This document shows positions 35,157 through 39,995 of a stretch of DNA of 64,000 nucleotides, piece by piece. The stretch is from an uncultured Pseudomonadales bacterium (GTDB lineage Bacteria > Pseudomonadota > Gammaproteobacteria > Pseudomonadales > Pseudohongiellaceae). The notes under the pieces were generated by a model. That model made no database searches. It was not told where the DNA came from and saw only the letters and a list, made by a program, of their open reading frames with translations. Each line of letters begins with the position of its first letter. Positions within the stretch are counted from its first letter, which is position 1. Position numbers and translations under genes: made by a program. The stretch spans positions 186,001-250,000 of the forward strand of contig CASIAB010000001.1 in NCBI GenBank assembly GCA_949372635.1, written 5' to 3'.

Positions 35157-36305
35157 ATGCCTCAAATGAATAAGCTATCTAAAGCTAAGTTTTGGCACTC
35201 AATCCACTCTTGGATTGGATTGAAACTTTCCCTTCTAATGACCTTTATCCTATTGACCGGGAGCATCGCTGTATTCTCTGCAGAAATAGATTGGTTCTTG
35301 TTCCCAGAAATGCGGTCATCTGATTCAACACCGGTAGTGCAAGTATCATGGGGAGCAAGTTTTGATGCAGTACGTGAAAATTATCCTAAATATGAGATTG
35401 ATAGCTTAAATCGGTATCCACAGGATTATATTGCATTGCAAGTAATAGCGAATACGCCTTGGAATGAGCTTGTAAGAATTTGGGTGGAACCAAGTGACGG
35501 GACAGTTTTAGGTGTAACTCAATGGTATAACGCGCAACGATTTCTTCGTAGCCTGCACAGGCATCTCATGATGCCCAACAATATAGGCATCCCTATTGTA
35601 ACTTTTATGGCTTTCCCTCTACTAACTTCATTAATTGCAGGACTCTTTATCTATAAAAAGTTTTGGAAGGGCATATTCAAGCGACCACGTTTTGAATTGA
35701 AGACTCGAATCTGGTTGGGTGACTTACATCGCCTAACGGGACTTTGGAGTAGCTGGTTTATAGCTCTCATAGCAATAACGAGTATATGGTATTTTATTGA
35801 GGAACTTGGAGGTAATGCACCGCCCTTACCTTCACCGGTTTCTCATAGCTGGGGCGGTTCTTCAGACCTCCCTTCGGGCTTTTCAGGTCAAACATTAGAG
35901 CGAGCCGTAGAGCTTGCTTTAACTAAGGTACCTGGCTTGGAAATACGCAGAATAGGTTTAGGCGAAACTTTGATAATCGAGGGCGATTTAACTGCTAACC
36001 TAGTGAGACCCCGAGCTAACTCGGTTTATTTAAACCCTTCGACTCTAGAAATAATTGGAAGCTATCAAGGCGAAGAATTAGAATTACATAATAGGATTTC
36101 TGAAGCAGCTGACCCTTTGCACTTTGGCTATTTTGGTGGTCTGATCTCAAAAGCTATATGGTTCTTAGTCGGCATGTGTATGACATCACTTTCTATCACT
36201 GGCTTTATGATTTATGCCACTCGCATTGGAAAAATTTTACTCCCGGGCAAAGCGCTTAAAGCACATGATGCCCCCCCCAAAGAAGAAGATATTCAATTCC
36301 CATGA
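35157..36305 (+). CDS. PepSY-associated transmembrane protein
   Basis: 382 residues with four membrane segments (about 20-42, 139-162, 193-213 and 334-361) and a large PepSY-like extracytoplasmic part. Conserved His pairs flank the segments: FWHSIHSWIG, SLHRHLMMP, DLHRLTGLW and PLHFGYFGG. This is the PepSY_TM group, which includes the ferrisiderophore reductases FpvG and FoxB and heme/iron-related proteins. The His residues could bind heme. It overlaps the next gene by 4 bp (ATGA). It lies in the AT-rich segment upstream of a Fur-controlled pair, so an iron role is likely; the exact function is inferred. Confidence 0.85.
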   Translation: MPQMNKLSKAKFWHSIHSWIGLKLSLLMTFILLTGSIAVFSAEIDWFLFPEMRSSDSTPVVQVSWGASFDAVRENYPKYEIDSLNRYPQDYIALQVIANTPWNELVRIWVEPSDGTVLGVTQWYNAQRFLRSLHRHLMMPNNIGIPIVTFMAFPLLTSLIAGLFIYKKFWKGIFKRPRFELKTRIWLGDLHRLTGLWSSWFIALIAITSIWYFIEELGGNAPPLPSPVSHSWGGSSDLPSGFSGQTLERAVELALTKVPGLEIRRIGLGETLIIEGDLTANLVRPRANSVYLNPSTLEIIGSYQGEELELHNRISEAADPLHFGYFGGLISKAIWFLVGMCMTSLSITGFMIYATRIGKILLPGKALKAHDAPPKEEDIQFP

Positions 36306-36724
36306 AAGATTTACTTATAGCTTGGTGGAGCTCAATGGGGTTTTGGCGTTGGCCAAATATCTGTCTAGTTCTAGTTGCTCTCTATTTATCTCTGACTAAT
36401 CTTGGATTACTTGCAATTAATATGAATAATTGGACATATCATGGTGAAAAGTTATTAGGAAAAGCTGAAATAGAACTTGATACTCGAGGAGTCCTGCGCA
36501 CTAGCGACATTGTTGGGGCCAGAATATGGTCATCAGATGCTGGAACTTACTTGATCAGTTCTGGCAGTAGAGTTAGCCATTCACTTACCATCGAATTAGA
36601 TGCAAACGAAGAAAAGGAGTTCAAACTACCAATTTCTAACCCGTTGGGCGCACCGCTAATTGTTACAGTCAGTGACTCTCAGCATAATTCGATAAATTGG
36701 AACTTAGGTAAGTTGTTTAAATAG
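36302..36724 (+). CDS. Small membrane-anchored protein of unknown function
   Basis: 140 residues. There is one hydrophobic segment (ICLVLVALYLSLTNLGLLAI, about 20-40) and then a beta-rich extracytoplasmic domain (IELDTRGVLRTSDIVGARIW, GSRVSHSLTIELD, LIVTVSDS). No family recognised. The 4-bp overlap with the PepSY gene implies translational coupling and perhaps a two-subunit membrane complex. Confidence 0.7.
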   Translation: MKDLLIAWWSSMGFWRWPNICLVLVALYLSLTNLGLLAINMNNWTYHGEKLLGKAEIELDTRGVLRTSDIVGARIWSSDAGTYLISSGSRVSHSLTIELDANEEKEFKLPISNPLGAPLIVTVSDSQHNSINWNLGKLFK

Positions 36725-36821
36725 TATGTGTTCCAGATTGCAGATAATCGAAGAGATTCTTAACAATCGGAAGAATTAAAATTCCTTGGACAAAAGGAGT
36801 ATAGTTAATCTATCATTGTAA

Positions 36822-36840
36822 ACGAATGATAATCATTAAC
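36822..36840. promoter_or_regulatory. Fur box
   Basis: The core AATGATAATCATTA lies 20-38 bp before the ATG of the repeat protein. Against the classic 19-bp Fur consensus I count 15 matches. The position suits iron-dependent repression of the repeat protein and the oxygenase downstream. Confidence 0.82.
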
Positions 36841-36859
36841 ATTTAGCGGGATTCAACCA

Positions 36860-37546
36860 ATGTCAGGGAAAAAACTAACACGTAGGTCGTTTCTAGGAAT
36901 CGTTGCCAGCGCGGGGATCATCTCAAAAAGCTCGTTTTTGGGATTAGTGTCTTCGGTCTACAGCTCCAATTCTCTGGCTCAAGAAGGCTCCGATTCTGCT
37001 TCAACCGAAGGTGCAGACACCAGCGACCAATCGGGACGAGCAAAGGAGTCTGGCTCTAGCGAAGGATCAGATAGTATTGACCAGTCTTCTGCTAATGATT
37101 CAGATTCCAGTGATCAATCGGGCCGCACTAGCAGTGATTCGGATTCCAGTGATCAATCGGGCCGCACTAGCAGTGATTCGGATTCCAGTGATCAATCGGG
37201 CCGCACTAGCAGCGATTCAGATTCCAGTGATCAATCAGGCCGCACTAGCAGTGATTCAGATTCCAGCGATCAATCAGGCCGTACTAGCAGTGATTCGGAT
37301 TCCAGTGATCAATCGGGCCGCACTAGCAGTGATTCAGATTCCAGCGATCAATCAGCGAGCGGATCAGATTCATCTGAAGGTTCAGATAGTAGCGATCAAT
37401 CAGGACGCACAAGAGGATCTGATGGAGGTGGAACTAGGCAATCAGAGGGATCTAGCAGCGACGCTGACTCTAGTGAAGGAACAGATAGCAGTGATCAGTC
37501 ATCTGCTAACGATTCTGACTCCAGTGATCAGTCAGGTCGAGGCTAA
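36860..37546 (+). CDS. Tat-exported Ser/Asp-rich tandem-repeat protein
   Basis: 228 residues. The N-terminus carries a twin-arginine motif (LTRRSFLGIVASAG) and a hydrophobic stretch, with a likely cleavage near NSLAQ|EG (about 41). The mature part uses almost only Ser, Asp, Gln, Gly, Arg, Thr, Glu, Ala and Asn. It contains no Cys, His or aromatic residue and is very acidic. Six and a half tandem copies of SSDSDSSDQSGRT fill the centre, flanked by degenerate copies such as GSDSSEGSDSSDQS. A Fur box lies just upstream and the Cupin_4 oxygenase gene starts 11 bp after its stop. I know no function; it looks like a substrate polypeptide for modification. Confidence 0.87.
   Translation: MSGKKLTRRSFLGIVASAGIISKSSFLGLVSSVYSSNSLAQEGSDSASTEGADTSDQSGRAKESGSSEGSDSIDQSSANDSDSSDQSGRTSSDSDSSDQSGRTSSDSDSSDQSGRTSSDSDSSDQSGRTSSDSDSSDQSGRTSSDSDSSDQSGRTSSDSDSSDQSASGSDSSEGSDSSDQSGRTRGSDGGGTRQSEGSSSDADSSEGTDSSDQSSANDSDSSDQSGRG
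37097..37354 (+). repeat. 39-bp coding minisatellite, 6.6 copies
   Basis: Copies begin at 37097, 37136, 37175, 37214, 37253, 37292 and 37331 (last one 24 bp). Each encodes DSDSSDQSGRTSS. Copies differ only at scattered, mostly third-base positions (tcagat/tcggat, ccagtgat/ccagcgat, tcgggc/tcaggc), so the array grew by duplication and is held in frame. Confidence 0.95.
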
Positions 37547-37557
37547 GTTTTGCGAGT

Positions 37558-38745
37558 ATGAGACATGAAAGATGGTATGAAAACCCACTTTCTTGCTTAA
37601 TTGGCGGAATTTCACCTGAAGATTTTTTCTCTGATTATCATGAGCAGCGCGCTCTGCACTGTGAGAACACTGAAATAAACCACTTTTGTGGACTTCTGTC
37701 GATAGACAGGATCGATGAAATTATAGCAACTACCGAACTACCGCCAACGTCAGTGCAAATGGCTAGGAAAAAGCCTCCCTTAGATAGATCCTTCTATACG
37801 TTCAAAAATGGCAATATAGATAGGGGAGCTGTGATTAACCATTACCAAAATGGCGCAACGATAATACTTCCACAACTCCAGCTCGCCGATGAAAAGCTCG
37901 CTCAGTTTTGTCGTTCTCTAGAAAAACAGCTCTCTTGTAAAATTCAAACCAATATTTATCTGACTCCAGGCAGCGCCCAAGGATTTAGCACGCATTATGA
38001 TGACCATGATGTGTTTATCATTCAAATTTCAGGCAAGAAGAAATGGCGCCTTTATCAAAAGCCAATAGATAATCCTTACAGTGGAGAAAAATTTAAGGCT
38101 GGCAATTACGAACCAGGGGCTCTAGAACATGATTTTATTCTTAAAGCCGGTGACTGCGCTTATATTCCCAGAGGCCTAATGCATGATGCTATTAATATAG
38201 GTGAAGAGCCTTCTCTGCATATTACGGTGGGATTACTTGTAAAGAAGTGGGCTGACTTAATGCTGGAAGCCATGTCTGAGGTAGCACTTAGAAATCCAAA
38301 GTTTCGACGCTCCCTTCCAGCTGGCTTCGCACGAGATGACTTTAATGTCTCAGATGCTAAAGAGTATTTTACCGTACTCGTTAATGAGTTTAGCGAAGAC
38401 ACCAACTTTGAAGAAGTTTTTGAATACTTTAAGGAAAACTTTTTAAGACTTCGGGTCCCAGATTATAGGAATCAACTCAATTTGGCGCTTTCGTCTTTGG
38501 ATCAAAGCGATTCCTTTATCCGTCGAGCCAATCTGCAAGCATTGGTGAGGTCAGATGAAAATGAAGTTATTGTGGTAGCAGGTGGAGGTGACCTCCATTT
38601 TATTGGCAACTCATTAAAAGGGATAAAAATAGCCTTATCAGGCGAGAAATTTTCAATTGGAGCTTTTTCTGATATCTCGAAGAAAGAAGCCGAATCTATA
38701 ATTCATAAATTGAGCGCATTCGGGTTAATCGAGAAAATAAACTAA
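37558..38745 (+). CDS. JmjC/Cupin_4 Fe(II)- and 2-oxoglutarate-dependent oxygenase (ROX family)
   Basis: 395 residues. The double-stranded beta-helix carries the metal triad His146-x-Asp148 (THYDDHDVFIIQISGKKKWRL) and distal His209 (IPRGLMHDA). This text is typical of the ribosomal-oxygenase group (YcfD, MINA53, NO66), which hydroxylates Arg or His side chains of proteins. The C-terminal 150 residues look like the helical dimerisation region plus a winged-helix-like end (SIIHKLSAFGLIEKIN), as in the same group. It begins 11 bp after the repeat gene, so that protein is the obvious candidate substrate. The repeats lack His but contain Arg, Asp and Asn. Confidence 0.9.
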   Translation: MRHERWYENPLSCLIGGISPEDFFSDYHEQRALHCENTEINHFCGLLSIDRIDEIIATTELPPTSVQMARKKPPLDRSFYTFKNGNIDRGAVINHYQNGATIILPQLQLADEKLAQFCRSLEKQLSCKIQTNIYLTPGSAQGFSTHYDDHDVFIIQISGKKKWRLYQKPIDNPYSGEKFKAGNYEPGALEHDFILKAGDCAYIPRGLMHDAINIGEEPSLHITVGLLVKKWADLMLEAMSEVALRNPKFRRSLPAGFARDDFNVSDAKEYFTVLVNEFSEDTNFEEVFEYFKENFLRLRVPDYRNQLNLALSSLDQSDSFIRRANLQALVRSDENEVIVVAGGGDLHFIGNSLKGIKIALSGEKFSIGAFSDISKKEAESIIHKLSAFGLIEKIN

Positions 38746-39250: not shown

Positions 39251-39721
39251 CTAAGAGCCATTTTCTAATTGAACAGAGCGCGCAACAATAGAATATTCTT
39301 TCACTTTACCTTGCAGCTCAAGAGTAGACTGCGAACCAGCATCTTTAGCAAAATGGGCAGCCTGCTCACCACTTAAGGTATGTTCACTAAGAACGCCATA
39401 AACTAAAGAGCGCTGCATACTGGTTTCAATTGGAACAAAAAAACCATAATCTTCAAAAGTAATGCGCGCATAGCTGTCACCATCGACTAGGATCATCCAG
39501 CACCCTTTCGCTTGGCATACTTCAGTGACTTGACCTTTAACTTTTATGAAGTTGTCCCCGCCACCATCAAAGGAAGCAATCGCTTGCTTGAGTGAAACCA
39601 CTTCACCTTCAAGTGGTATTCCTGCACCAAACTCCTGGTCAGCGCTAAAAAGTCCTTCAGCGCTAGAATCAATTCCCAAAACAGCAAACAGACTTAGAAG
39701 TAAGCCACCAGATAATTTCAT
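39251..39721 (-). CDS. Secreted DUF4920 protein
   Basis: 156 residues with a signal peptide (MKLSGGLLLSLFAVLGIDSSAEG). The core VKGQVTEVCQAKGCWMILVDG is the DUF4920 hallmark, with two Cys four residues apart followed by Trp. The fold is probably an OB-like barrel with a disulfide or metal site in the periplasm. Function unknown. The ATG at 39721 gives the best signal peptide and has AGGG upstream; ATG 39739 is an alternative. It is convergent with the oxygenase operon and shares its AT-rich composition. Confidence 0.85.
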   Translation of the reverse strand: MKLSGGLLLSLFAVLGIDSSAEGLFSADQEFGAGIPLEGEVVSLKQAIASFDGGGDNFIKVKGQVTEVCQAKGCWMILVDGDSYARITFEDYGFFVPIETSMQRSLVYGVLSEHTLSGEQAAHFAKDAGSQSTLELQGKVKEYSIVARSVQLENGS

Positions 39722-39995
39722 ATTTTTAACCCTATTCATTCTTGTTGTGCAAGTTCAAAAATGCCAAAAAACATATCTTCAATTCTTGCCACGTTCCAAT
39801 ATATGCGTCTAAAGTCAAGAAACCATAGAAAATTACTAAATATGCTACTCAATCCCCTGCGTAAAGCAAACAGATTTTTCAACTTAATTTTAAAATTACA
39901 GCTAATTCAAATGGCCACCAGTTCTATACAAATTAAATACGTAAAACCGTGCACTTATTAAACTAGATCGTTCGTCTCCAATAGTATGTGTTGAG

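Follow-up and report, generated by a model that had tools for sequence, protein, structure and literature searches.

The stretch of DNA analyzed here (the window, 64,000 nucleotides of contig CASIAB010000001.1 from an uncultured Pseudomonadales bacterium of the Pseudohongiellaceae) contains a short group of genes centered on two neighbours, a JmjC_2 (Cupin_4) oxygenase of the Fe(II)/2-oxoglutarate (2OG) type and, 5' of it, an Asp/Ser-rich repeat protein with a signal for twin-arginine translocation (Tat). The locus is composed of the following features:

35157-36305, + strand: gene for a PepSY_TM membrane protein (Pfam PF03929, 164.7 bits against a cut-off of 28.8)
36302-36724, + strand: gene for an orphan protein of 140 residues, overlapping the PepSY gene by 4 bp, with one N-terminal hydrophobic segment (by eye)
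36822-36840, + strand: Fur-like box ACGAATGATAATCATTAAC, 15/19, 19 bp 5' of the start codon of the repeat gene
36860-37546, + strand: gene for the Asp/Ser repeat protein with a Tat signal, 228 residues, in no Pfam family; the proposed substrate
36860-36979, + strand: twin-arginine signal peptide TRRSFLGIV ... SLA, read in the sequence, with the cleavage site placed by eye
37096-37353, + strand: tandem array coding for DSDSSDQSGRTSS, 6.6 copies of 39 bp with 94% matches
37558-38745, + strand: gene for the JmjC_2 (Cupin_4) Fe(II)/2OG-type oxygenase, 395 residues, with the Pfam domain and residues H146, D148 and H209

The JmjC_2 gene starts 11 bp past the stop codon of the repeat gene, and this arrangement, together with the intact metal triad, the Tat signal and the PepSY neighbour, is as an earlier note on this DNA had described it; PADLOC gave no match. 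The JmjC_2 domain of the enzyme scores 99.6 bits in Pfam against a curated cut-off of 22, and its HxD...H triad (H146, D148 and H209), which aligns with that of NO66, is invariant across 74 aligned relatives. The AlphaFold2 model used, built from 74 sequences (a first one, from 15 sequences and with a mean predicted local distance difference test score of 65.9, was set aside), predicts the full-length NO66/RIOX architecture with its JmjC, dimerisation and winged-helix parts. By domain and architecture the protein belongs to the RIOX fold family, for which “ribosomal oxygenase” is the name of a fold and not of a demonstrated substrate. The known RIOX/ROX members (NO66, MINA53 and YcfD) share the JmjC_2 domain, the dimerisation and winged-helix parts and the HxD...H motif and place a hydroxyl on the beta carbon (C-3) of His or Arg, whereas the window enzyme falls in a separate clade, lies beside a putatively exported repeat protein, and is accompanied in this clade by repeats that often lack His and sometimes lack Arg. 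A fragment resembling enzyme residues 230-271, in a 56-residue open frame with no repeats nearby, occurs at L094:7223-7348 (contig C4 of genome G000) and looks decayed.

A search for the repeat protein in a set of 5.8 billion proteins returned only two weak matches, and its co-occurrence with the oxygenase was therefore examined by way of the enzyme and across entire genomes. Enzyme relatives were taken from the GTDB set with patterns derived from the enzyme alone, giving 53 named loci titled Pseudohongiella, OM182 and other gammaproteobacteria, Maricaulis, Hyphobacterium, Woodsholea, Brevundimonas and others (one, L033, is titled Dehalococcoidia and was counted as gammaproteobacterial by its position in the tree; L031 and L032 come from one metagenome-assembled genome and have an identical repeat protein). 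A fixed rule (same strand, motif count and Asp content) finds a repeat open reading frame (ORF) beside the enzyme in 49 of these 53 relatives, and reading raises the count to 52; all 49 lie less than 1.9 kb from the enzyme, in loci scanned over their whole length of up to 17 kb. Of the four loci that the rule leaves, L036 is partly masked, yet a Tat signal and repeats are visible, L039 and L042 have a Tat signal followed by other Asp/Glu-rich sequence, and L047 has none. L050 has repeats with no visible Tat signal. The closest repeat gene is 5' of the enzyme in all but L043, where it is 3', and Maricaulis-type loci often contain two or three repeat paralogues in a row. As controls, 19 further JmjC_2 matches from the same genus and order (L012-L030) were given loci with 1.5-kb flanks, and a repeat neighbour is present in none of them. 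When 398 genomes of the phylum were sampled (the window's own included), all seven other members at E <= 1e-100 adjoin a Tat repeat protein and none of seven more distant enzyme matches (1e-29 to 1e-38) does so. Two families that are alphaproteobacterial by reading (f74 and f63) added 12 new loci, ten with a repeat gene and two without (L114 and L121), so that the further loci of the 398-genome sample and of these families, when pooled, have a repeat gene in 17 of 19 cases; at L120 the repeats lie in an open frame that shows no start, and L121, a weaker enzyme match (E 1e-58), has no repeat gene over 15 kb.

A tree of 89 enzymes (57 have the pairing, 32 lack it) requires two changes of the trait, compared with a mean of 26.2 changes after shuffling and with none of 500 shuffles as low. 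This tree was weighted above Fisher tests because related genomes are not independent. It contains 40 of the 54 named enzymes (the window and the 53 relatives), those left out being L032, L038, L039, L044, L047, L051, L056, L063, L069, L075, L077, L078, L079 and L083, among which L047 is without a repeat gene. All 40 were labelled as having the repeat, including the partly masked L036 and the variant L042, and a Streptomyces relative (L122) was labelled as lacking it despite a DxDPxDP peptide 5' of its enzyme. In the reverse direction, 58 related genomes were searched for the window repeat protein, and the 10 that gave a match are all among the 11 that carry the enzyme clade; in the enzyme-bearing genome that was missed (G026) a repeat gene is evident by direct reading; in another family of 99 genomes, the repeat protein occurs in three and the enzyme in the same three. 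The genome G892 (L136, L137 and L138) has, by reading, seven Tat repeat proteins, five adjoining its single enzyme gene and two far from it, one of the latter adjoining a TonB_C energy-transducer gene. The earlier note had named a lack of co-occurrence in relatives as refuting its proposal; the proposal is not refuted on this point, the two genes being found together with few exceptions. Conservation of the pairing in both directions across the enzyme clade is well supported, and the comparative pattern makes it very probable that the repeat protein is the substrate of the enzyme.

The repeat proteins were compared in a set of 88, extracted by requiring a twin-arginine motif, at least 8% Asp and more than 50% of D/S/G/Q/T/N/E/M. 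The mature part of the window protein (taken as 183 residues) contains 36 Asp, 74 Ser and one Lys, with no Cys and no His, and has a net charge of -30; the median is -21 in 22 gammaproteobacterial proteins and -4 in 65 of the other group, so that the description of the family as acidic holds for the former and not for the latter, which are near neutral. Repeat types diverge considerably, from SDSDSSDQSGR in the window to GGEGTDSSDQS in Pseudohongiella, TDNDPNDQAGNGRG in L043 and TDSDTGSYADPVGNGRG in Maricaulis, with short two-repeat forms such as TDADNGNITDRAGYGRG in L099-L102. A lipobox-like motif follows the signal in 24 of the 88 proteins. At L099-L102 and L110-L113, the enzyme is accompanied by one to three short Tat proteins, most of which have two repeats; a KTLTDxDITT segment recurs in them before the twin arginines and may be a recognition leader. 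NCBIfam matches of repeat proteins to staphylococcal Clf/Sdr adhesins and to a YSIRK lipase were rejected as low-complexity similarity far under the cut-offs. The array is also spanned by a second long reading frame, out of phase with the first (37011-37568); since relatives show the Tat frame, this one was set aside and attributed to the lack of stops in the repeat.

The residues known as targets of 2OG protein hydroxylases are Arg, His, Asn, Asp, Pro and Lys. Asp, Ser, Gly and Ala are present in all 88 proteins, and Arg is missing from one, Asn from 8, Gln from 41, His from 55, Glu from 65 and Lys from 85; the variants L039 and L042, chosen by position, are likewise rich in Asp. Asp is favoured because it alone among the known targets occurs in every protein, and it is the probable site of hydroxylation. 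Readings with Arg, His or Asn as the only target were set aside on composition and, among the targets proposed earlier (Arg, Asp or Asn), it is Asp that survives best: Asn is lacking in the eight proteins mentioned, the mature part of L042 has no Arg, L034, L037 and L040 have two or three Arg, all in the C-terminal tail, for seven or eight repeats without Arg, and in L035, L041 and L044 Arg is by reading likewise confined to two or three tail residues. In L042, a Met/Glu/Asp-rich sequence without Arg (L042:7615-7902) stands in place of the repeats, with the enzyme and PepSY genes kept. In 45 sets of the second group, counted on GxGR anchors, Asp lies three residues before the anchor in 399 of 477 cases and a DxD lies upstream at one of two fixed spacings in 397 of 477; most alphaproteobacterial units end in GxGR by reading, with R in 396 of 399 pattern-selected units.

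The iron context comes from Fur-like boxes, PepSY proteins and TonB receptors. Boxes were scored in one orientation against the Fur consensus, leaving out L036, L047 and L050, for which no repeat gene had been extracted, and L053, because of a contig end. ACGAATGATAATCATTAAC is the sole site of at least 15/19 found in the window, and ten first-order resamplings of the window gave none as high and a mean of 0.7 sites of at least 14/19. Sharing of the boxes by relatives, which the earlier note had proposed to score, is seen in gammaproteobacteria: in their loci (window included), a site of at least 14/19 precedes the first repeat gene in 12 of 22, compared with 3 of 184 other genes of the same loci. 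A putative Fur box recurs at this promoter in the gammaproteobacterial relatives; it is weak in most of the other 28 loci, nine of which reach 13/19 or more (controls, 7 of 282). The description of the whole group as a Fur-controlled cassette stands for the repeat gene, with its clear box, and not for the PepSY gene of the window, upstream of which the best site is 11/19. A PepSY_TM gene on the same strand adjoins the pair in 18 of 25 gammaproteobacterial loci plus the window, in more than one gene order; at seven loci where it follows directly, its start and the end of the enzyme gene share 1 or 4 bp, and, as a unit of its own, it has its own Fur-like box (14-18/19) in seven loci. A TonB receptor gene joins in five gammaproteobacterial loci and has, as a separate unit, its own Fur-like box (13-16/19) in five. 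The genes most often found alongside at Maricaulis-type loci are ruvABC and transketolase. The only PDB match of the PepSY protein is 7abw (E 6.5e-8 with a 10-row profile), which we take to be FoxB, a ferrisiderophore reductase; the two belong to the same PepSY_TM family, the likeness is distant, and a reductase function of the PepSY protein is putative. Taken together, these genes make iron the somewhat favoured candidate for the cargo.

beta-Hydroxy-Asp is an iron ligand in the siderophores made by non-ribosomal peptide synthetases (NRPS), and it is for this reason that the product is proposed to be an Fe(III) binder. In the mechanism suggested by the gene content, low iron would relieve Fur repression of the repeat and JmjC genes, and the oxygenase, a divergent member of the RIOX/ROX fold, would act in the cytoplasm on the repeats of its neighbour, a step with strong comparative support, beta-hydroxylating one or more Asp per repeat. 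The hydrophilic chain, which carries visible export signals, would then leave by the Tat route, as a soluble periplasmic protein or as a lipoprotein where there is a lipobox-like motif, to become a multivalent Fe(III) binder in the periplasm or at the surface. This binder would be loaded through TonB-dependent uptake and would hand its iron to the PepSY protein, which, in a step already suggested in the earlier note, may reduce it. As a whole, an enzyme-substrate cassette of iron homeostasis, in which Asp is beta-hydroxylated before Tat export to give a periplasmic iron binder, has a chance a little short of even, and Asp hydroxylation, Fe(III) binding and the periplasmic or surface site of action are all putative. 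A wider version is more tentative still: a ribosomally made, Tat-exported poly-(beta-hydroxyaspartate) protein, modified many times per chain by its own JmjC oxygenase, could be a protein siderophore or a periplasmic Fe(III) store, JmjC enzymes could run a class of large, metal-binding ribosomally synthesized and post-translationally modified peptides (RiPPs) in Proteobacteria, and DxDPxDP mini-precursors of Streptomyces could be distant kin.

Several observations weigh against this proposal. There is no evident way for a chain this long to leave the periplasm or to be taken up, and the oxygenase, being dependent on Fe(II), would in iron-starved cells itself require the metal that it is proposed to help collect. 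At L047 a repeat gene is absent (the enzyme there is without its first 42 residues), and at L114 the enzyme is present with no repeat gene within 16 kb. No site above 12/19 is found in 8 of the 22 gammaproteobacterial loci; among the other 28, a site of at least 14/19 occurs in only three (L070, L071 and L077, with tandem boxes), compared with 5 of 282 controls, and phmmer found no relatives of the PepSY protein or of the TonB receptor in the flanks that were scanned at these 28 alphaproteobacterial-type loci. The universality of Asp is partly by construction, because the extraction asked for at least 8% of it. Finally, since the alphaproteobacterial repeats are near neutral and have Arg in most units by reading, Arg is a possible target in this group, where the target could be mixed or Arg.

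This last point leads to the best of the alternatives, an unlikely one, which keeps the same enzyme-substrate pair with Arg or another residue as target, hydroxylation serving to tune a disordered surface or periplasmic polymer. The GxGR ends of most alphaproteobacterial units fit such a role, the fold is shared by YcfD, which hydroxylates Arg81 in L16 (excerpt of PMC4295552), and for the JmjC protein BipG the target is an ornithine of a RiPP (excerpt of PMC12707348); the absence of Arg from the L042 mature part and its confinement to the tail in L034, L037 and L040 argue against Arg. Rather improbable is a large RiPP-like precursor, with the repeats as cores, cut into short hydroxy-Asp peptides that, once secreted, would be recovered through the TonB receptor as siderophores. 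The receptor with its own Fur-like box downstream in five loci would suit this scheme, and the spacing of bOHAsp-Ser-Gly-Ser-Ser-bOHAsp in potashchelin equals that of D-S-D-S-S-D (excerpt of PMC7100376; a resemblance and not a test); however, the receptor is present in few loci, no dedicated protease or exporter was found among ten annotated representatives of the neighbours (not a full survey), and the lipobox-like motif, where present, argues for a cell-bound protein. Calcium binding by the repeats, with Asp hydroxylation stabilising the site as in EGF-like domains and the Fur link secondary, is improbable: the spacings DxD....D and GGEGTDxxD are loosely like those of TSP3 and RTX repeats, whereas no Pfam calcium-binding family (EF-hand, TSP3 or RTX) matches the window protein or ten relatives, such low-complexity repeats being hard for profiles, and in gammaproteobacteria the Fur-like boxes and the PepSY and TonB genes speak for iron. 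The RIOX fold would suit an enzyme merely linked to an independent Fur-regulated neighbour and acting elsewhere (on a ribosomal protein, for example), which is very improbable given the two-way co-occurrence despite changing gene order, orientation and repeat type, and given that several genomes of the window's relatives carry a second, distant JmjC_2 match.

Returning to the proposed enzyme-substrate cassette, its arrangement, a putative precursor gene beside a putative modifying enzyme and co-inherited with it, is of the RiPP type and is likened to that of bufferins, which are Sec-exported, copper-binding RiPPs modified by multinuclear non-heme iron-dependent oxidative enzymes (MNIOs). Both have a ribosomal, exported precursor beside its oxygenase and a relation to metals, although in bufferins Cys is modified to thiooxazole by the MNIO (excerpt of PMC12452194), and the cassette is no bufferin: its oxygenase is of the JmjC type, its export signal is for Tat where bufferins use Sec, the mature protein of the window lacks Cys, and it has Fur-like boxes where bufferins answer copper stress. 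With the NRPS beta-hydroxyaspartate siderophores (potashchelins), the repeats would share, if Asp is hydroxylated, a Ser/Gly-rich chain with hydroxy-Asp five residues apart, here in a ribosomal protein instead of an NRPS peptide. BipG, of the biphenomycin cluster, is a proven case of a JmjC oxygenase acting on a ribosomal peptide in a RiPP cluster (excerpt of PMC12707348), its product being a small antibiotic peptide.

More distant relatives of the enzyme are also found near small ORFs. The Streptomyces clavuligerus enzyme (L122) is 37% identical to that of L102 and, on the same megaplasmid, a 48-residue ORF (L122:4781-4924) lies 91 bp 5' of the JmjC_2 gene and ends in ADNDPSDP and ADPDPFDP; homologous peptides of two other Streptomyces (P0124 and P0125) contain DNDP[ST]DPV twice each, DxDPxDP is the core of many alphaproteobacterial repeats, and the leader of the ORF, SL.PDEIEV, resembles by eye the KTLTDxDITT leader of the short Tat proteins of L099-L112. 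This ORF is a possible RiPP precursor without a Tat signal. In Rhizobium etli (L125, pRetIE4803b), the JmjC_2 gene is in a gene run with a radical SAM/SPASM gene and a 77-residue ORF, and in Pseudanabaena galeata (L124, pPg_03) it lies near a LanM gene; from these three settings, the JmjC_2 branch looks at home with ribosomal peptides. Two Streptomyces plasmids (L132 and L133) have tandem cupin (JmjC-like) gene pairs with a major facilitator superfamily transporter, an M13 metallopeptidase and TPR proteins, possibly a peptide cluster.

No account of the pairing was found in the open-access PMC literature, which is weak evidence of novelty because most subscription journals are outside that scope. 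The proposal would provide a bacterial clade of JmjC enzymes with what appears to be a substrate of its own that is not ribosomal, would widen the exported RiPP-like proteins by both an oxygenase type (JmjC) and the Tat export route and, if true, would place the hydroxy-Asp iron ligand of siderophores in a genetically encoded polymer. The pair is carried by Maricaulis maris DSM 4734, M. salignorans DSM 16077, Woodsholea maritima DSM 17123, Hyphobacterium indicum and Brevundimonas denitrificans, so that it can be tested directly in named strains.

As for the neighbouring genes, a DUF4920 protein is encoded downstream of the cassette on the opposite strand (window 39251-39739, - strand). The orphan 140-residue protein, which the earlier note does not mention, has relatives in ten named loci plus the window, adjoining the PepSY or the repeat gene, two members being without a Pfam match, and the family has an N-terminal hydrophobic segment, WWxSMGxWRWxN.

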